Shown here one piece after another: positions 24,087-33,618 of a DNA stretch of 64,000 bases (the stretch's first letter is position 1; each line of letters starts with the position of its first letter). The notes under the pieces are model-generated. The model saw nothing but the letters and a program-made list of their open reading frames with translations, made no database searches and was not told the origin of the DNA. The position numbers and the translations under genes are program-made. Source of the stretch: Salinisphaera sp. Q1T1-3 (GTDB taxonomy: Bacteria > Pseudomonadota > Gammaproteobacteria > Nevskiales > Salinisphaeraceae); assembly GCF_003602005.1 (NCBI RefSeq), contig NZ_QZWD01000019.1, forward strand, positions 1 to 64,000, in the 5' to 3' direction.

Positions 24087-24349
24087 CCTTCGCGGGACTG
24101 AATCACCGGTCTCGGCTGTTCTTCGACATATATCGTCAACACCGGCCGCCCCCTGCCCACCGACAGTGCACGGCAAAGCACGAACGGGCGCCACAGAGAA
24201 CACCGGCAAGGCCTGCCTTGCGCAATAGACCGCGCATGCCGCCACCGTGCGTGCCCCGGGGCGATGCGCCACAGACCACTCGTTATCTCAAGGCCCGTGG
24301 CCCGAATCGACTCCCGGAGCGAGCGAAGAACCGCGATGAGCCATGCGAG

Positions 24350-24486
24350 AGCCTGTTGCGGTTTCATCCGGACCTCGCCTTGATCTGGGTCAATCGTGTT
24401 CGGCAAAGCACGAATCACCAAACGGTTGTGTGCCTGATCAAGACGCGCAAGGCGATCAGGGTGCTCGCACGAAACCTCAACACGCC
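24350..24486. repeat. Family A repeat, short form with both ends
   Basis: The left end AGCCTGTTGCGGTTTCATC is a weak match to the family terminus; the right end CTCGCACGAAACCTCAACACGCC is an excellent one and is followed by CTAG (24487-24490). An inner inverted repeat CCTGATC/GATCAGG lies near the right end. The rest of 24087-24636 holds no recognisable gene; several short frames there look random. Confidence 0.65.
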
Positions 24487-24562
24487 CTAGCGATACGTCT
24501 TTTCTCTCGGCCCGTCATGGATTGTCAGAGAGCTTATGGCACAGCCCCGGACGAACGTCAGC

Positions 24563-24589
24563 TCAAGAATTCGTGCGTGCAGTCGATAT
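24563..24589 (+). promoter_or_regulatory. Sigma-28 (FliA)-like promoter of the chemosensory operon
   Basis: TCAAGAAT (24563-24570), an 11-nt spacer and GTCGATAT (24582-24589) match the FliA consensus TAAAGTTT-N11-GCCGATAA at 5 of 8 and 6 of 8 positions with the exact spacing. It lies 48 nt before the receptor start. This is a visual match only. Confidence 0.5.
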
Positions 24590-24636
24590 GACCTCAAGCG
24601 AGGCACGTTTAAACGAAAAAGGGAGCCGGATTCACC

Positions 24637-26565
24637 ATGGCGCTAAGGAAAAGCACAAACGCGTTCGATAACGCTCCGGAGGTCGGCGCGACAGAGTCCG
24701 TCAACGCCTCGGAGAACACGCCACAAAACGTCGACCAGAAACGACGCCGTGCGCGGACGCTCGCCAAGCAGCAGCAATCGGCCGAGCGTATCGCCAGTGC
24801 ATCGCAGCAGGTCGCGGCCAGCATCAACGAATCCGGCCAGGCCCGTGGCCAGTTGCAGGAGGCCTTGCAGGAGATCGCCTCCGGCGCGGAGGAATCGGCC
24901 TCGGCCAGCCAGGAGAGCCTGGCTGGGGTACGCAGCATCAACGAGCAAGTCCGCGCGTTGAACCAGCATGTCAAGACCACTCGCGAAGAAGCCAGCCGTG
25001 CCAATCGCGATTCCAGCACCGCCGCCGAGCGCGTGCTGTTGCTGGTAAACAATCTCAACGAGACCGCCGAGCGGCAGAAACGGTCGCGCTCGCTGATACA
25101 AAGCCTGCAGGAGCAGGCCGGCTCGATCAACGAAGCGGCAAGCCATGTGATGCGGATTGCCGACCAGACCAATCTGCTGGCCTTGAACGCGGCTATCGAG
25201 GCCGGACGCGCCGGCAGCCATGGCAAGGGGTTCGCGGTGGTGGCCGATACCGTGCGTGGCCTCGCCGAGGCAGCCGGGCGTAGCGCGACGGAGATCACCG
25301 ACCTCGCCGACCAGATACAGTCCAGGACGAAAACGGCGACCGAGTCGGTCAAGACAGCAGCGCAAGCCTCCGAGGAACAGGCCACTTCCGCCGAAGGCGT
25401 GAACGAGCATTTCCGCCAGATCGTCGAAGACATGCGCGGGATCACTAGCCTGGCCGAGGAGATCGACAGTTCAGTCGATGAAATCGAAACCGCCATGCTG
25501 GAATTGCAACAAGGCGCCGAAAGCGTGGCTTCGGCTGCCGATCAGCAGGCCTCGGCGTCCGAAGAAGTCGTCAACTCGCTGGCCGAACAGCGGACCGCAT
25601 TAAGCGATGCCGACAAGCGCTCGCGCGAACTGGAAGATATTTCCGACGAGCTGCGCCAGAGCACGGAAACCGCCAAAAGCGCGGAAAAAGTCACAGCCGT
25701 GGCCGAGGAACTGGCCGCCTCGGTCGAGGAATTGCAGCGCGGATCGAGTGAAGTCGAAACGGCACTGCGTGAAATTCTGAAAGGCGCCGAACAGAACGCG
25801 GCGGCATCTGAAGAGTCGCTTTCGGCGATCAAGCAGCTTGAGGAGAACGTCAAGAACGCCGACAGCAAGGCCGAAGACGGCCTGGACCGGACCAAGCGCG
25901 TCACCGAGGTCTTGAGCGAAAACCGCGACGCAGTCGAGGAAATCGTCAAGGGCCTGGAAAAGATGCTGGCCGACTCACGGGAGAATCTGAAACAGGTCGA
26001 GTCGATTCAAAAACTCAATCGACAGACCGACAAGATCGCCAACACGATTTCAAATATCGCGATCAAGACCAGCATGTTGGCCGTCAACGGCGCGGTCGAG
26101 GCCGCACGGGCCGGCGAACATGGCAGCGGGTTCGCGGTGGTCTCGGGCGATATCCAGACGCTGGCCGACGATTCCAGCAATAACGTCGAAGAAATCCAGG
26201 AGATGGTAAGCAGCATTCAGAACCAGATCGACGGCATTCATCACGAGCTGATCGAGTCGGTCAAGGCAGCTGAGTTCGATGTCAAGCGTGCTCAGGAGTC
26301 GCTGGAAGAGATCAACAAGCTGGAAAACCAGCGCGATTCGCTAGTCGGCGGCAACGAGCGGGTACGCGCGAATATCAGCGAGGTCTCGTCCTCGATTTCC
26401 GAAGGCCGCACGGCCATGCAACAGGTCGCCGAAGCCGCCGAACAGGCCAGCGGCAATGTCCGCCAGGCCACCGCGTCGGCCCAGGAACAGGCTCAGGGTG
26501 CCAAGGAGCTGTCAGCCGCAGTCGAGGAAATCGCCTCGATCGCCGATGAAATCCAGTACAGCTAA
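24637..26565 (+). CDS. Soluble methyl-accepting chemotaxis protein with two signalling domains
   Basis: 642 aa, with no membrane segment and no recognisable sensor domain; almost all of it is predicted coiled coil. Two separate receptor tips are visible: residues about 170-215 ([27 protein letters not shown]) and about 470-515 ([28 protein letters not shown]). The first is close to the consensus, the second diverged at the CheA/CheW contact face. Gln/Glu-rich helices around both could hold methylation sites. No C-terminal CheR-binding pentapeptide is seen (ends ADEIQYS). It is the first gene of the cluster that also encodes triple CheW, CheB, CheR and CheA, so it is probably the sole dedicated receptor. 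Confidence 0.9.
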
Positions 26566-26744
26566 CCCCCGGCTGGCACGGCGCGCGTCATCACGTCGCT
26601 GGCGCCGGTCCGCCGGCATCTTGCGCAACGGCCTGCGCTCGAGCCGGTCCGGTGGGACCGGTTCGCCAGAACACCAGCGCCAGCACGGCCCGGTGCCCGG
26701 AGCGAACACGGGCCTTGCCGGCCCTCGTCGGATAGGAACAGGTG

Positions 26745-28304
26745 ATGCAACAAGCAACAGATATTGAGACCGACGACATCTCGACTTCCGAGGCCCTGCT
26801 GTCACTGGTGATCTGCCGGCTGAGCGATCAACGCTTTGCGCTGCCGATGCGCGATGTCGCCGAGGTCTTGCGTGTCCCGGAAATACGCCAGATGCCGATG
26901 ACGCCACCGGCCTTGCTCGGGTTGGCCAGCCTCCGCGCCAATGTCGTGCCAATCGTGGCACTGGACCGGCTGCTGGGCATGGAACAGGTCGCCGATGAAA
27001 CCCGGCAGGGGCGTGTCGTGGTCATGGAACTGGACAATACACTCGGCGTTCGCGTCGATGATGTAGAGAACGTCGTTTCCCTGGATCGCGACAGCGCACA
27101 GTACGAGGCCACCGAAACCGATGACGAGGGCATCTGGGGCTACCATCACGACGACGAAGGCCGTGTGGTCCAGTGGCTGGACGTCGGCCATCTGACGCGC
27201 GGACGGCTGCTCGCCGACAGCCGTCCGGACACACCTCCCACGCCGCGGCACAACGCGTTCGAGTTGGGCCAGACCGGCGCCACCGAAGAACACGTCGATG
27301 AAACGATCTCGCTGGTCAGTTTCGATGTCGCCGAACAACGCTTCGCGTTCCGGCTGCTCCAGGTGCATCAGATTCTGCGTATGCCGCAGACCATCAGCGT
27401 GGTCCCGAATGCTCCCGATTATCTGATCGGCTTGATGACGCTACGGGGCGAGACCCTGCCGCTGATGGCTCTGGGCGCTTATTTCTCTCTCACCGAGGGC
27501 TATCGCGAAAACGCCCCGATCGTCGTGCTGCAGTTCGATGCCTATCGCATCGGCCTGTTGGTCGACGATGTACACGAAGTGCATCGGGTCATGCCGGACG
27601 AACTGGATGTCGTGCCGGCGATGACCGCCGGCGGTCTAGACGAGACCATCGAAGGCATCTGTCGACCGACCGACGACCGACCGATGATTACAGTCTTGAA
27701 CGATCATGTCTTTCGGGGGCTGGCCGAACAGTACCAGACCCGAGGCCGCGACCGACACCAAGCCGCTCGCAAGAGTGGCCGGCAGGGCGCGGGGGGGCCC
27801 GCAGGCGAAACCAGCCGCAAGCTGCTCGATCTCACACTCGGCGGCCAGCACTACGGCCTGCCGATTGAAGTCGTCCAGGAAATCGCGCAACGCCCGGCGG
27901 CATCGCGCGAGGTACCGGCCACGCCGGATTATCTCGACGGCATGATGAATCTTCGCGGTCAAGCCTTGCCGATTCTGGATGTTTCACGCCGGCTGGGCCT
28001 GGCCGCCGGGGGCGAGGATACGGCGGCCCGGCAACGGATCGTCGTCGTCGATCACGATGGCATGAAGACCGGCCTGGCCGTGGATACCGTCGATGATGTG
28101 GTCTCGATCGACCCGGAATGGATTCAGCAATCCGGCCAGATCTTTCTTGGGCGTCAGATGCTGGTCGATGGCCTGGTCAAGATCCCCGACAGCGACCGCA
28201 TCATTCAGTCACTTTGTCTCAACGCGCTATTCGATGCCGATACCCGGGCACAGTTGCACGACGGCAGCGAAAACGATGACGCCGACCGGGCCACCCCGGC
28301 TTGA
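26745..28304 (+). CDS. Coupling protein with three CheW domains
   Basis: 519 aa made of three CheW-like folds, roughly 18-165, 188-330 and 360-500. Each has the CheW start pattern (LVICRLSDQRFALPM; LVSFDVAEQRFAFRL; LDLTLGGQHYGLPI) and the LRGxxLPI-type core (SLRANVVPIV; TLRGETLPLM; NLRGQALPIL). Linkers are acidic or basic and low complexity. A three-CheW protein can join several receptors or kinases into an array. A double-tipped receptor upstream makes multi-point docking a natural inference. ATG 26745 has AGGA seven bases upstream; a GTG one codon earlier is possible. Confidence 0.9.
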   Translation: MQQATDIETDDISTSEALLSLVICRLSDQRFALPMRDVAEVLRVPEIRQMPMTPPALLGLASLRANVVPIVALDRLLGMEQVADETRQGRVVVMELDNTLGVRVDDVENVVSLDRDSAQYEATETDDEGIWGYHHDDEGRVVQWLDVGHLTRGRLLADSRPDTPPTPRHNAFELGQTGATEEHVDETISLVSFDVAEQRFAFRLLQVHQILRMPQTISVVPNAPDYLIGLMTLRGETLPLMALGAYFSLTEGYRENAPIVVLQFDAYRIGLLVDDVHEVHRVMPDELDVVPAMTAGGLDETIEGICRPTDDRPMITVLNDHVFRGLAEQYQTRGRDRHQAARKSGRQGAGGPAGETSRKLLDLTLGGQHYGLPIEVVQEIAQRPAASREVPATPDYLDGMMNLRGQALPILDVSRRLGLAAGGEDTAARQRIVVVDHDGMKTGLAVDTVDDVVSIDPEWIQQSGQIFLGRQMLVDGLVKIPDSDRIIQSLCLNALFDADTRAQLHDGSENDDADRATPA

Positions 28305-28395
28305 TGGCGGCCGTTGACGGTATCGCCATATCCGGCGGCAGGCGGCGAACGGCCGGACCGCGCCGCAGTACTCCCATTTAAGAGCGCCCCACAGC

Positions 28396-29484
28396 ATGCC
28401 CTACGGACACGCGAGAAAGATCAAGGTCCTGGTCGTCGACGATTCAGCACTCATGCGTCGACAACTCAGCCGCCTGATCGAACGACGCGCCGGCTTCGAG
28501 GTCTGTCTCGCGCGAGACGGCCAGCATGCGCTGGACCAGTGTCGCAGCGAAGCCCCGGATGTCGTCACTCTCGATATCAATATGCCGGTCATGGACGGAC
28601 TGACCTGCCTGTCGCATCTGCTGGCCGAGATGTCGATACCGGTGATCATGGTTTCCTCGCTGACCGACAAGGGCGCGCTGGCAACCTTCGAGGCACTCGA
28701 ACTGGGCGCCTTCGACTACGTCACGAAACCCGAAGGCACTGTCTCGAGCAACATGGAAACGCTCGGCGATACCTTGATCGACAAGATACGGGCCGCCGTG
28801 ACGGCCATTCCGGTCTCGCACGAGCCGCCCGCGCACGTCGCCGCTCCGGCAAGCCCGGGCCGCCCGACCGACACGACCGCAGCGCGTACGCACGGGTTCG
28901 CAAAGCCGCCGTCGCGCAAGCTCGTGGTTTTCGGCGTCTCGACCGGCGGCCCGGGGACGATGGAAATCATCCTCAAGGCACTGCCTGGCGACTTTCCGGT
29001 GCCGATCGTCATCGCCCAGCACATGCCGGCGCGATTCACTTCGGTCTTTGCTCAGCGCCTAAACGACAGTTGTGCACTCGAGGTCCGGGAAATCGGTGCG
29101 CCGATCGCCCTGACCCCTGGAGTGGCTTATCTGGCGCGCGGCGATGCCGATATTCGCATCAGCCAGCGACGTGGCACCTTGACTGCCAAAAGCGTCCCGA
29201 GCAGCGACGACTATTTCTGGCATCCCAGCGTGTCGCGTCTTGTCGCCTCGGCCTGCGAGGCGGTATCGGCAACCGGCCTGATCGGCGTGCAACTGACCGG
29301 CATGGGCCACGATGGCGCCGAGGAAATGGCCCGGGCCTACCGGGACGGGGCCTTGACGATCGCCGAAACCGAACACAGTGCCGTGGTTTATGGCATGCCG
29401 CGCGCCCTGGTCGAACAGGGCGGCGCAACGGTGCAGTGCGATAAACACCAGGTCGCCGATCAGTTGATCCACTGGCTCAGCTAA
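28396..29484 (+). CDS. cheB: Chemoreceptor glutamate methylesterase CheB
   Basis: 362 aa with an N-terminal receiver domain and C-terminal methylesterase. The receiver has the acid pair VVDDSALM, phospho-acceptor aspartate near residue 59 (TLDINMP) and lysine in VTKPEG. The esterase triad is seen as serine in GVSTGGPG (about 182), histidine in AQHMP (about 209) and aspartate in LTGMGHDG (about 305). It removes methyl groups from receptors when phosphorylated by CheA. It is the only receiver domain in the cluster, so it is the only visible phosphoryl acceptor. Confidence 0.95.
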   Translation: MPYGHARKIKVLVVDDSALMRRQLSRLIERRAGFEVCLARDGQHALDQCRSEAPDVVTLDINMPVMDGLTCLSHLLAEMSIPVIMVSSLTDKGALATFEALELGAFDYVTKPEGTVSSNMETLGDTLIDKIRAAVTAIPVSHEPPAHVAAPASPGRPTDTTAARTHGFAKPPSRKLVVFGVSTGGPGTMEIILKALPGDFPVPIVIAQHMPARFTSVFAQRLNDSCALEVREIGAPIALTPGVAYLARGDADIRISQRRGTLTAKSVPSSDDYFWHPSVSRLVASACEAVSATGLIGVQLTGMGHDGAEEMARAYRDGALTIAETEHSAVVYGMPRALVEQGGATVQCDKHQVADQLIHWLS

Positions 29485-29506
29485 GACACACCACCGGCGC
29501 CGGCTC

Positions 29507-30463
29507 ATGTCATCTGTTCAACATTGTATCGATATCGATCGACTTCACAGGGCCAACCAGCCGATGACCGACACGTTACGCATTGGCGATGCACTGACAC
29601 GCCTGACCGACAGCGACTTCGTGCGCTTTCGCGACTATTTCTATGGCCGCACCGGTATCTACTTCGACGAATCCAAGCGTTACTTCGTCGACAAACGCCT
29701 GATCGAGCGCATCAAGGCATGCGGGTTCAACGATTTCCGCAACTACTTCGCGATGATGCGGTTCCAGGCAGGCGAGCAGGAATTTCAGAAACTCGTCAAT
29801 GTCATGACGGTCAACGAAACCTATTTCATGCGGGAGGCCTACCAGTTCGACTGTCTCGTCGAAAACGTGCTGGACGAGTGCATGGCCGATCGCAACCGGC
29901 AGGGACCATTGCGGATCTGGTCCATTCCGTCGAGTACCGGCGAAGAAGCGTATTCAATGGCGCTGACCCTGCTCGATCGCTGGCCGCACATCGATCACGT
30001 CGATGTCGAAATCATTGCTTCCGATATCGATACCGCCGCCCTCGAGGTTGCGCGCCGCGGCATCTACAAGAAACGCTCGTTGCAATACCTGAGCGATGGG
30101 GCCAAGCAACGCTACTTCCAGTCGGTAGGTCCCGACCGCTGGCAGGTCGCGGACACCATCCGCGATGCCATCAGTTTCACCCATGTCAATCTCGCCGACC
30201 CGGCGCAGACCGAGCGTTATCGCGATTTCGATATCGTGTTCTGTCGCAATCTGCTCATTTATTTCGACGAAGCTTCGCGGCGGCAGGCCGCCGGCGTGTT
30301 GCACGAGGCCCTGCGCCCCGGCGGCTTCATCTTTCTCGGCCATTCCGAATCCATGAGCCGTATGTCGACGGCGTTCCAGATTCGCAAGTTCCCGAAGGCG
30401 ATGGCCTATCAGAAACCGCTGCGCCCAGGCCCCGGGCAGTCGGCGGCCACTGTGCAGCCATGA
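29507..30463 (+). CDS. cheR: Chemotaxis protein methyltransferase CheR
   Basis: SAM-dependent enzyme that methylates receptor glutamates. The N-terminal helical domain (SDFVRFRDYFYGRTGI) precedes the catalytic domain with MTVNETYFMRE, the SAM loop WSIPSSTGEEAYS and DIVFCRNLLIYFD. In the SAM loop, IPSSTGEE replaces the more usual AGCSTGEE. Length is 318 aa from ATG 29507; ATG 29564 (MTDTLRIG) is an equally plausible start, and neither has a good ribosome site. It sits between cheB and cheA. Confidence 0.94.
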   Translation: MSSVQHCIDIDRLHRANQPMTDTLRIGDALTRLTDSDFVRFRDYFYGRTGIYFDESKRYFVDKRLIERIKACGFNDFRNYFAMMRFQAGEQEFQKLVNVMTVNETYFMREAYQFDCLVENVLDECMADRNRQGPLRIWSIPSSTGEEAYSMALTLLDRWPHIDHVDVEIIASDIDTAALEVARRGIYKKRSLQYLSDGAKQRYFQSVGPDRWQVADTIRDAISFTHVNLADPAQTERYRDFDIVFCRNLLIYFDEASRRQAAGVLHEALRPGGFIFLGHSESMSRMSTAFQIRKFPKAMAYQKPLRPGPGQSAATVQP

Positions 30464-30575
30464 ATCGCCGGCGTGAACCATTCACCACGTGTCGGGCGCG
30501 TCTTCACCGCCTCGCGACCCAACCATCTCGGCCGGCCGTCATACGGCTTGGCGTCCTACCGACTGGAGCCCGCGC

Positions 30576-32861
30576 ATGACATCTATGCTCGAATCCTTTG
30601 TCATCGAAGCTCGAGAGAGTCTGGAGCATGCCAGCGAGACGATTCTCGCGCTGGAACACGACCCGCACGACAGCGACAAGCTGGGCGATCTGTTTCGCAG
30701 CATCCATACGGTCAAGGGCACCGCCGGGATGTTCGAAAACATGGAAGCCTTCCATCGGCTGGCCCATACCACCGAAGACGGCCTCGACCAGCTGCGTAGC
30801 GGTGCCTTCTCGATCACCAGCGAATACACCGACCTGTTGTTTGCGGTACTCGACCAGCTCAATGCCTGGCTCGACCATCTCGACACTCACGGCGTGCTAC
30901 CGGCGTCGGCCGCCCCCGACAGCCAGGGCCTCATCGATCGCCTGATCGCCCACAAGCCGGCCGGCGATGCCATAGAGACCGACACCGTTAGCGCGCGAGC
31001 TGCCGAGACCGCGCCCGACCGGGGCTCGATCACGGCCCCATCCGCATTACCCGACTGGATAGAAAACCTGCCCGAAGCATGGCGAACCCGGGCCGAGCAA
31101 GACAGCCAGACCACGCCGGAAACCCGCATCTTCGCGATCCGCTACACGCCGGCCGCGGATAGCTTCATGTGCGGCGCCGATCCGCTCGCCACGGTTCGCG
31201 CCTTGCCCGGCCTGATCGGCTACCAGGTCGATGCCCGCCAGCCCTGGGCCGGTCTCGAGGCCATGGCGCCCTACGACTGCAACCTCGTATTCGACATCCT
31301 GACGAGCGCCGAACGCGATGTCGTCAAGACAGCATTGGCCGAAATCACCGCCCAGTGCGAAGTCAACGAAATTGCCCCCGAGGCCTTGGTTCCCCCCGAA
31401 CAGGCCGGCGACGACGAAGACGCGCTCGAAGCCCTCTTCGATGCGCTATCGGCCGACTTCGCCGACAACGATCCGCAGAGCGAGCCGGCACCACCGGCCT
31501 CGCCGAATCAGGCCGACGCGCCCGAAGCCGATGAGCTACCGACCGAGCGCCCGGCCGGCGCGCCGGAACCCGAGCGTAGGCCGCAAACGCCGCCCGGCGA
31601 AGACGCCAAACCACAGGCCGACAACAAACCACTGCGTGTCGAACAGCACCGGATCGACGAACTCATGACCCTGGCCGGCGAATTGATCGTGGCCAAGAAC
31701 GCCTTGCCGTTTCTCGCCAAGCGGATCGGCGACGGTGACGATCGCGACGAACTGGTACGCGAACTCAAGGCCAATCAGGCCGACCTCGACCGTATCGCCG
31801 ACCGTATCCAGAGTGCCGTCATGTCGGCGCGCATGGTGCCGGTCTCATCCATCTTCCAGCGTTTTCCACGGCTGGTGCGCGATATTTCGCGCAAGCTCGA
31901 AAAAGACGTGGAACTGGTCATGGAAGGCGAAAACACCGAAGCCGACAAGAACATCATCGCCGGCCTGGCCGATCCCCTGATCCATCTCGTGCGTAACAGC
32001 CTGGATCACGGCCTGGAAACGCCGGCCGAGCGCCGCGCCGCCGGCAAGCCCGGCACCGGGCGCATCGTACTGCGGGCCAAGGCCCTCGACGACCAGGTGT
32101 TGATCGAAGTCGGCGACGACGGCGGCGGTATCGACCCGGCCCGAATCAAGCAGAAAGCCTTCGACAAAGATCTGATCGATGCCCAGACCCGTGACAGCAT
32201 CAGCGATCAGGACGCCCTGCAACTGGTTCTGCTAGCGGGTTTTTCCACTGCGGACAACGTCTCCGATCTATCCGGGCGCGGTGTGGGCATGGATGCCGTC
32301 AAGAGTGCGGTGAACAACGTCGGTGGCCATCTGCTCATCGAAAGCGAAATCGGCGTTGGTACCACGATGCGGATCCTGTTGCCGATGTCGATGGCCGTGG
32401 CCCGTGTTCTGCTGGTCGACATCGACGGCCAGCGTTACGGCGTGCCGATGTCCCTCATTCGCGAGACCGTACGACTTCACCGGGACAAGTTCGATCGGGT
32501 CAAGCATAACGAAGTCATCCTGTTGCGCGACCAGTTGATCTCGATCCATCGCGGGCGCGCGCTGCTCGGCCTCGACGACGCCGCCCCAAACGCCTCCGAA
32601 CAGGCCGTACTGATCCTGGAGATCGACAACCAGACCGTTGGCGTCGTCGTCGACGAATTCCTGCAAAGCGTGGATATCGTGCAAAAGCCGATGGCCGGCG
32701 TGATGGCGCAATACGATATCTATGCTGGCAGCGCCCTGACGGGCGACGGTCAGGTGTTGCTGGTGCTCAACCTGCCCACGATGCTGCGCCGTGCGAGCCA
32801 GGCGGCCGAGACTCTGCCCGCCGTCTGCGAATCCACTCCCCGCGTGATACAGGAGGCTTGA
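30576..32861 (+). CDS. cheA: Chemotaxis histidine kinase CheA
   Basis: 761 aa. Order of domains: Hpt with the phospho-histidine near residue 44 (RSIHTVKGTAG); a P2-like beta-alpha region (about 185-275, FAIRYTPAADSFMCG); a long acidic Pro/Ala linker; the dimer helices (RIDELMTLAGELIVAKNAL); the ATPase with N box HLVRNSLDHG (about 472), G1 GDDGGGID and G2 SGRGVGMD; and a C-terminal CheW-like domain. ATG 30576 is preceded by GGAG. All catalytic residues are present, so it should be active, yet no CheY is encoded next to it. The next gene starts immediately after the stop. Confidence 0.95.
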   Translation: MTSMLESFVIEARESLEHASETILALEHDPHDSDKLGDLFRSIHTVKGTAGMFENMEAFHRLAHTTEDGLDQLRSGAFSITSEYTDLLFAVLDQLNAWLDHLDTHGVLPASAAPDSQGLIDRLIAHKPAGDAIETDTVSARAAETAPDRGSITAPSALPDWIENLPEAWRTRAEQDSQTTPETRIFAIRYTPAADSFMCGADPLATVRALPGLIGYQVDARQPWAGLEAMAPYDCNLVFDILTSAERDVVKTALAEITAQCEVNEIAPEALVPPEQAGDDEDALEALFDALSADFADNDPQSEPAPPASPNQADAPEADELPTERPAGAPEPERRPQTPPGEDAKPQADNKPLRVEQHRIDELMTLAGELIVAKNALPFLAKRIGDGDDRDELVRELKANQADLDRIADRIQSAVMSARMVPVSSIFQRFPRLVRDISRKLEKDVELVMEGENTEADKNIIAGLADPLIHLVRNSLDHGLETPAERRAAGKPGTGRIVLRAKALDDQVLIEVGDDGGGIDPARIKQKAFDKDLIDAQTRDSISDQDALQLVLLAGFSTADNVSDLSGRGVGMDAVKSAVNNVGGHLLIESEIGVGTTMRILLPMSMAVARVLLVDIDGQRYGVPMSLIRETVRLHRDKFDRVKHNEVILLRDQLISIHRGRALLGLDDAAPNASEQAVLILEIDNQTVGVVVDEFLQSVDIVQKPMAGVMAQYDIYAGSALTGDGQVLLVLNLPTMLRRASQAAETLPAVCESTPRVIQEA

Positions 32862-33098
32862 GTGTCCATCGAATATCGCAAACGCAGTGCCGTACTGACC
32901 GGGACCTGTACCGTCGACGAAGCCGACGAACTCCTCGAGTGGCTGATCGACCATCCCAGGGCATCGCTGAATCTCGGCGCCTGTGACCATTTTCATGCCG
33001 CGATCCTGCAAATGATCCTGGCCGGCCGAATCAAGATATCGAAGCCCCCTGCCGAACCGACGCTGCGCATGGCGCTCGGTCTCGCTGACACGACATGA
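32862..33098 (+). CDS. Small STAS-like protein ending the chemosensory operon
   Basis: 78 aa, GTG start directly abutting the cheA stop (TGAGTG) with AGGAGG (32851-32856) inside the end of cheA, so translation is coupled. The sequence VLTGTCTVDEADELLEWL ... LNLGACDHFHAAILQMIL has the beta-alpha-beta-alpha rhythm of STAS domains (compare DLS.CxHLHxAxLQ). At the loop where phosphorylated STAS proteins have Asp-Ser, this protein has Asp-His-Phe-His, so no phospho-serine is available. I recall similar small proteins next to alphaproteobacterial cheB/cheR/cheA sets, but no function. It may be an output or assembly partner. Confidence 0.75.
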   Translation: MSIEYRKRSAVLTGTCTVDEADELLEWLIDHPRASLNLGACDHFHAAILQMILAGRIKISKPPAEPTLRMALGLADTT

Positions 33099-33112
33099 CG
33101 TTCGTCGATTCG

Positions 33113-33294
33113 TTATTGACCCGGCATAAAAATAGATGATTCTTCGGGTTGATAACGCGCGTGTGCGAAAGCACGCGCGCCACGGCCAACGGCCGTGAAG
33201 CCATTGAAAATAAAAAGACGGACAAGGGCCGGCGTTTCTTTCGATGGCGTTGAAGACAGCTGACGTCGTCAGCTGTTTGGGTGCCGGATTAATA
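33113..33294 (+). repeat. Family B repeat, copy 1
   Basis: 182 bp, ends TTATTGACCCGGC and GCCGGATTAATA (imperfect inverted). Inside are GTGC-GAAA-GCAC within a longer GCGCG stem, CACGGCC-AAC-GGCCGTG, a large A/T arm pairing CCATTGAAAATAAAAAG with its counterpart before GATGGCG (weakened in this copy), and ACAGCTGAC-GTC-GTCAGCTGT. It starts 14 nt after the stop of the STAS-like gene and could end the chemosensory transcript. Confidence 0.88.
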
Positions 33295-33618
33295 TCCCGA
33301 ATCGAATATCCGGTTTCCGGGCACGGCGGGTCGTTTCGCGAGGCGCCGAGCGGCGAACTGTTCTGCGAGGAATCGCTGCCTTTCTCTGTATCGGCGATCC
33401 GGGGCTGATATCGACCAGAGTCGGTCCGGCTCGGCTTGGCGAAAACAGCAAACGAACGCGGCGTCGAGCCCCAGACACAGCGCTGTTCGGAGTGTTGGGC
33501 TGTTATGCCGACGCGTTCTGGCACATCAGCTGCCTCGCGTTCCGATATCAGCCGTTTACTTGTGCGCGCTGGTTCGAATGCCCCCAGAGAACATGTCTCG
33601 ATTCCGCGTCGACACGCC
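33295..33618. other. Intergenic stretch between family B copy 1 and a GNAT gene
   Basis: About 320 bp downstream of the chemosensory operon. I see no gene, no repeat of the other families and no clear promoter. The GNAT gene at 33619 ends against it from the right. Confidence 0.5.

Follow-up and report, generated by a model that had tools for sequence, protein, structure and literature searches.

When a chemosensory gene cluster keeps its kinase and has no CheY, where does the signal go? The question is raised by a cluster of Salinisphaera sp. Q1T1-3 that lies in the stretch of 64,000 nucleotides analysed here (the window). Six uninterrupted frames run along the plus strand from 24637 (not from 24563, where an earlier note, made from the letters alone, had begun the cluster) to 33098. 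Pfam matches and a STAS-fold model bear out that note's reading of the frames as a receptor, a triple CheW, CheB, CheR, CheA and a STAS-like protein in one direction. It had also described an operon without CheY, CheZ, CheD or flagellar genes, and none of these is found among the frames of the cluster; CheZ, CheD and flagellar genes are present elsewhere in the source genome. The features are listed below, with coordinates within the window.

24637..26565, plus strand: dosM-type soluble receptor, 642 aa, with two MCPsignal hairpins (Pfam, over cut-off)
26742..28304, plus strand: cheW3, 520 aa, three CheW stretches in one protein (Pfam, over cut-off)
28396..29484, plus strand: cheB, receiver and methylesterase (Pfam, over cut-off); the HEAT gene is missing 3' of it
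29507..30463, plus strand: cheR methyltransferase (Pfam, over cut-off); cheY1 is missing 3' of it
30489..32861, plus strand: cheA, with Hpt, P2-like, dimerisation, kinase and CheW domains and without the helical bundle of full F9 CheAs
32862..33098, plus strand: small STAS-fold protein, 78 aa, a conserved F9 component (fold from an AlphaFold model)
24087..33618, no strand: stretch from ctpA to GNAT-ubiB in which the cluster lies, lacking in sibling genomes; a putative insert with approximate ends

The DosM protein has no predicted transmembrane segments and is 37% identical to its homologue in Methylotuvimicrobium buryatense. CheW3 is the most diverged component within the cluster, and the only receiver domain is that of CheB, whose gene is separated from cheR by 22 bases. 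Alignment to relatives suggests that the true start of CheA is more likely an internal ATG at about 30576. Using what we take to be the active-site motifs of CheA, CheB and CheR, we found the catalytic motifs present in all three, in agreement with the earlier claim that CheA and CheB keep their active residues. Three-frame translation revealed no remnant of cheY1 between cheR and cheA. Frz and Wsp/ACF are examples of second chemosensory systems whose roles lie outside swimming. Their output receiver is carried by CheA or by a separate protein and, unlike the window, they have no double-tip receptor with a triple CheW.

The receptor and adaptor had been singled out as unusual. Both are real, but they are the hallmarks of a known class. 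In the parts of the literature drawn on here, DosM and CheW3 are the signatures of class F9, which is best known from cluster I of V. cholerae (PMC9321776, PMC7534058). As described there, DosM bridges two CheA/CheW layers in an array that is purely cytoplasmic (PMC7534058, PMC9321776), deletion of the V. cholerae F9 CheA caused no detectable phenotype under standard conditions (PMC7534058), and the function of the class is stated as unknown (PMC9321776, PMC7534058). According to the same parts of PMC9321776, 64 of 2781 species have a full F9 cluster and 8 a partial one, horizontal transfer of F9 has occurred many times, and the partial sets described consist of dosM, cheW3 and cheBR, with both cheA and cheY absent.

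In the window, DosM carries two tandem signalling domains, CheW3 is made of three concatenated CheW domains, and CheA falls within a clade supported at 100/100. A CheA phylogeny, as the earlier note had proposed, places the window inside F9, in a tree from which V. cholerae and the published class references are absent. Together, gene content, gene order and CheA phylogeny assign the cluster to class F9 at the level of sequence. The complete set with cheY is not present, and neither is the published kind of partial set, as the window has cheA with its motifs intact. Because the cluster has no cheY and the CheY of the genome is flagellar, the window holds a partial F9 set, one that keeps the kinase and has no regulator but CheB. 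Our literature searches, together with the parts of the cited papers drawn on here, gave no description of an F9 set of this kind. The partial sets of Nitratiruptor and Nautilia, as given in the same parts of PMC9321776, also have the signature genes without cheY, but theirs lack cheA as well.

We surveyed F9 loci in several collections of genomes. Among named genomes, searching by protein pattern yielded 19 loci, of which one, in Methylotuvimicrobium buryatense 5G, was syntenic; the other 18 were judged by gene order not to be F9. Searching with the window CheA gave matches of at least 378 bits in 8 of 368 other genomes of its class, the next best reaching 332. In a sample of the phylum, F9 gene content was found in 6 of 397 other genomes, one of them already known; for 15 further genomes of this sample, loci were inspected in four (G594, G468, G644 and G754) and none was F9. 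A search with an F9 CheA alignment gave three of the 337 genomes from the class to which G446 belongs, where only G1097 was inspected below these three, and three of the 48 from that of G498. Among plasmids, 217 records had a match; 12 loci were fetched from them, and 10 of these were F9. Loci L143-L148, L205, L218 and L220 were rejected on gene order. With each genome counted once, there are 26 loci besides the window, or 25 usable loci after removal of G464. The G464 locus (L208) has an F9 CheA, broken or truncated CheB, CheR and CheA frames and no HEAT gene, which may reflect decay or an assembly fault.

For 21 of these 25 loci, DosM and CheW3 could be seen alongside the F9 CheA. The remaining four (G412, G593, G257 and G498) are F9 by CheA, CheY1 and STAS. 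The locus of G412 is cut by a contig end, that of G593 has a CheW3-like piece 3' of STAS followed by a contig end, and in that of G498 a CheW-receiver protein precedes CheB, and the stretch examined contains no DosM. CheW3 is present in G257, where a gene for an RRXRR/HNH endonuclease (L115:1761-3053), likely an insertion, occupies the place of dosM. The usual F9 order is DosM, CheW3, CheB, HEAT-repeat protein, CheR, CheY1, CheA and STAS, and a second CheY and a second receptor often follow STAS in full loci. The HEAT protein was identified by Pfam in one member (E 1.2e-19) and by annotation in eight full plasmid loci.

Some F9 clusters have further genes. In six full clusters (L112:8240-9007, L114:8539-9294, L140:10769-11641, L141:7558-8349, L209:10468-11319 and L210:10451-11212), the gene after STAS codes for a ParA-family ATPase; it is annotated in two, and the frames in the four unannotated clusters match these two at E 1e-37 or better. 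L118 has a gap at this position and no such frame in it. Judging from these genes, F9 arrays may have a positioning ATPase of their own. Directly 3' of the F9 clusters of M. buryatense and G446 lie RsbR-, RsbS- and RsbT-like genes (L058:14420-16508 and L139:13513-15608), and a stressosome-type link of class F9 is possible.

Considering the gene order, full F9 clusters (V. cholerae cluster I; M. buryatense 5G; Methylosinus, Methylobacterium, Sphaerotilus, Eleftheria and Azospirillum plasmids) share with the window the series DosM-CheW3-CheB-CheR-CheA-STAS on one strand, and their CheAs belong to the same clade as that of the window, the V. cholerae CheA not being in the tree. In contrast to these clusters, the window has no HEAT gene, no CheY1, no CheA bundle and, 3' of STAS, neither a regulator nor a second receptor. 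This bundle, a helical stretch of about 80 residues, lies between the P2-like and dimerisation domains of full F9 CheAs. A model of this region of the G593 CheA revealed an alpha/beta P2-like domain followed by a helical bundle (pLDDT 80.9), for which Foldseek returned no significant match. CheY1 and the bundle are kept in 22 of the 25 other loci, and HEAT is found in 20/20 of the full loci that extend over its position, those of G412 and G593 being cut. All three parts are missing in 3/25, namely G1023, A. vitis pAvCG78b and Rhizobium sp. L51/94. With the window included, the compact loci, a group defined by gene order before the trees, thus number four, and 4/4 are without HEAT, CheY1 and bundle. 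In the other three, STAS is followed immediately by a free-standing response regulator of about 126-141 aa, which the window does not have. In the compact rhizobial clusters, a gene annotated CheX (L216:10885-11514 and L217:10878-11507) and a PAS kinase lie beside this remaining regulator.

We built a bundle profile from 13 full F9 CheAs and held out nine. The profile recovered seven of the nine at E 3e-8 or better. For the CheAs of Sphaerotilus and Eleftheria the match was weak (E 0.28 and 0.08) but correctly placed, and the alignment shows that they have the segment. The CheAs of the window, G1023, A. vitis and L51/94 scored zero or below. Searching for the HEAT gene genome-wide, we found none in the genome of the window (at E 0.01) or in G1023; as a control, the search found it in G683 and, at E 1.2e-60, in G816, which had no part in building the profile.

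Phylogenetic analysis of CheA indicated that the compact state arose more than once. The F9 CheAs form one clade (support 100/100, and 100/99 in another tree) that includes the window. In a maximum-likelihood tree of the CheA core, the window groups with five full gammaproteobacterial clusters with support of 99/97 (100/99 and 87/93 in other CheA trees). The other three compact rows occupy a different part of the tree as one clade, with weak support (64/43). Two changes are needed for the compact state (two to three in bootstraps), a single origin of the four compact rows is rejected (AU p 0.00013), and a single origin of the window and G1023 alone has p 0.011. Because HEAT and cheY1 flank cheR, one deletion cannot remove both and spare cheR. 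Since the same three parts were lost twice, it is probable that HEAT, CheY1 and the CheA bundle work together as a single output branch, a role read from their co-loss. The CheY-less state of the window is a derived loss, accompanied by loss of the HEAT gene and part of CheA.

The cluster was probably acquired horizontally. In 12/12 siblings examined (the set holds 13; G001, in which the contig is cut, was left out), ctpA neighbours GNAT or ubiB, and no che gene separates them. In the two siblings where GNAT went undetected, ctpA lies within about 250 bases of ubiB. CheA matches occur in 7/13 siblings, with identities over parts of no more than 45%. Since the siblings have no che genes at this site, acquisition is most likely; loss from all siblings is a less simple reading. 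A search for repeats bounding the insert gave no convincing pair.

We then examined which receivers the genome offers to the window CheA. The source genome, which is 3.87 Mb long and 99.97% complete, gave 27 matches to the receiver domain, and we read the frames concerned. The only free-standing CheY-like receiver, of 129 aa, is in the flagellar cluster, which reads motA-motB-cheA-cheW-cheR-cheD-cheB-cheY-cheZ-flhB-flhA (CheZ by Pfam, the che genes scored, the rest named by eye). One other lone receiver, of 138 aa, lies within an over-long frame on contig C15, and the other matches are multi-part proteins, judged by length and by eye. The earlier view of a system distinct from the flagellar che cluster and without a CheY of its own is thus upheld, and the genome-wide check that it had suggested revealed no CheY paired with the window CheA among the 27 matches. 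DosM apart, the genome encodes six receptors: five have transmembrane segments, and the sixth is a soluble protein carrying three PAS domains. The triple-PAS receptor (G000:C2:61278-63077) was considered as an F9-specific partner and rejected, as it has matches in 7/13 siblings, none with F9. On contig C11 of the same genome, at about 35.4-41.5 kb (L079:15364-19907, L008), another chemosensory-like module consists of a hybrid histidine kinase with three receivers and, after it, a CheR-like and a receiver-GGDEF protein.

To compare rates of change, we used the eight taxa common to all proteins and counted, for each taxon, changes at positions invariant in the other seven. The window has changed 30% of such positions in CheW3, 14% in DosM, 12% in CheA, 8% in CheR and 7% in CheB. 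In six other taxa the ranges are 0-3% for CheW3, 0-9% for DosM, 1-7% for CheA, 0-8% for CheR and 1-9% for CheB, with G728 an outlier at 13-24%. Among 26 F9 rows, only G1023 (0.75) has a longer CheA end branch than the window (0.72). A special conservation of CheB was considered and discarded: on all rows, 1/74 invariant columns had changed, but on eight taxa the count is 6/84, which is ordinary. The scaffold has thus drifted, with CheB and CheR normal, which fits either altered function or partial decay.

Our preferred reading, to which we give a probability of about 0.4, is that the cluster encodes a reduced F9 array that has shed CheY1, HEAT and the bundle, with forward output by cross-talk to the flagellar CheY. 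The two-tipped DosM, CheW3 and CheA would build a putative two-layer cytoplasmic array, in which CheR and CheB would adjust receptor methylation and CheB would be the sole acceptor within the cluster of phosphate from CheA. The HEAT protein, CheY1 and CheA bundle, which in ordinary F9 systems would act as one output branch, have been shed, and the remaining output would pass by cross-talk to the only CheY-like free receiver of the cell, that of the flagellar cluster. In that case, swimming would be modulated by the array in response to an internal signal. The window CheA keeps the Hpt, P2-like and kinase parts that such cross-talk would use, the genome has no other CheY-like lone receiver than the flagellar CheY, and phosphotransfer between two chemosensory pathways is described for C. 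testosteroni in the part of PMC6391922 drawn on here. On the other side, we found no sequence feature that ties the window CheA to the flagellar CheY, the lone receiver on C15 is also present, and the changes in CheW3 and DosM may mean decay of the array. We rank cross-talk to the flagellar CheY as the most likely route of output, followed by CheB alone and then decay.

It is conceivable, though we think it doubtful, that CheB is the sole phosphate acceptor and that the output to an internal signal is the methylation, set through CheB and CheR, of receptors that belong to the array or are shared with it, such as the triple-PAS receptor. CheB carries the only receiver in the cluster, its motifs are intact, and both CheB and CheR have changed within the range of the six non-outlying clusters, while CheW3 lies far outside its own; the genome also encodes a soluble PAS-PAS-PAS-MCP receptor. 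However, the matches to that receptor in siblings without F9 indicate that it is not specific to the system. Moreover, DosM ends in EIQYS and the triple-PAS receptor in VVQR, and neither has what we take to be the tether motif for CheR and CheB. The more specific version, an array without a CheY-type messenger in which CheB is the only acceptor, methylation is the output and the F9 output branch was shed as one module, is slightly more doubtful.

It is rather unlikely that the cluster is simply decaying, having been acquired, left without output and retained so far by chance. Such decay is consistent with the lack of an output regulator in the cluster, with the fast change of CheW3 and DosM and with the long end branch of CheA. 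It is harder to reconcile with six uninterrupted frames, intact motifs and the normal pace of CheB and CheR, or with the fact that the same three parts are missing in two rhizobial plasmids and G1023, though each of these keeps a regulator.

The small terminal protein had also been offered as the output. The 78-aa protein has a sub-threshold Pfam STAS_2 match (E 0.1), and its AlphaFold model (pLDDT 91.8) has a STAS fold like that of SpoIIAA and RsbV: chains of these two proteins fill the top seven Foldseek matches, of which only the first is below E 0.001 (9.2e-4). A STAS profile compared with solved structures gave nothing useful. Output through partner switching with an anti-sigma factor, in the manner of SpoIIAA/RsbV, is nevertheless improbable. 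SpoIIAA is phosphorylated on a serine where helix 2 begins; at the position that we align with it, 13 of 13 aligned members have an invariant alanine instead. No rsb-like frame adjoins the STAS gene in the window, as judged by eye, despite the rsb-like genes downstream of the M. buryatense and G446 clusters. A precedent for sigma-factor control is Che1 of Shewanella (class F7), which the part of PMC9855816 used here links to RpoS through CrsR/CrsA. Because the STAS protein is equally present 3' of cheA in F9 clusters that have CheY, it is not a substitute output. Signalling from CheA to the 138-aa receiver on C15 is very improbable, for although this is the only other receiver readable as free-standing, it is divergent from the PAS-HisKA kinase that it adjoins, its likely partner, and scores low against two F9 CheY profiles (19 and 26 bits, compared with 103 and 88 for the flagellar CheY).

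Together, these data indicate that at least two lineages shed the same three parts, which marks the likely output branch of F9 systems. The window is a natural F9 case that separates array formation and adaptation from output.
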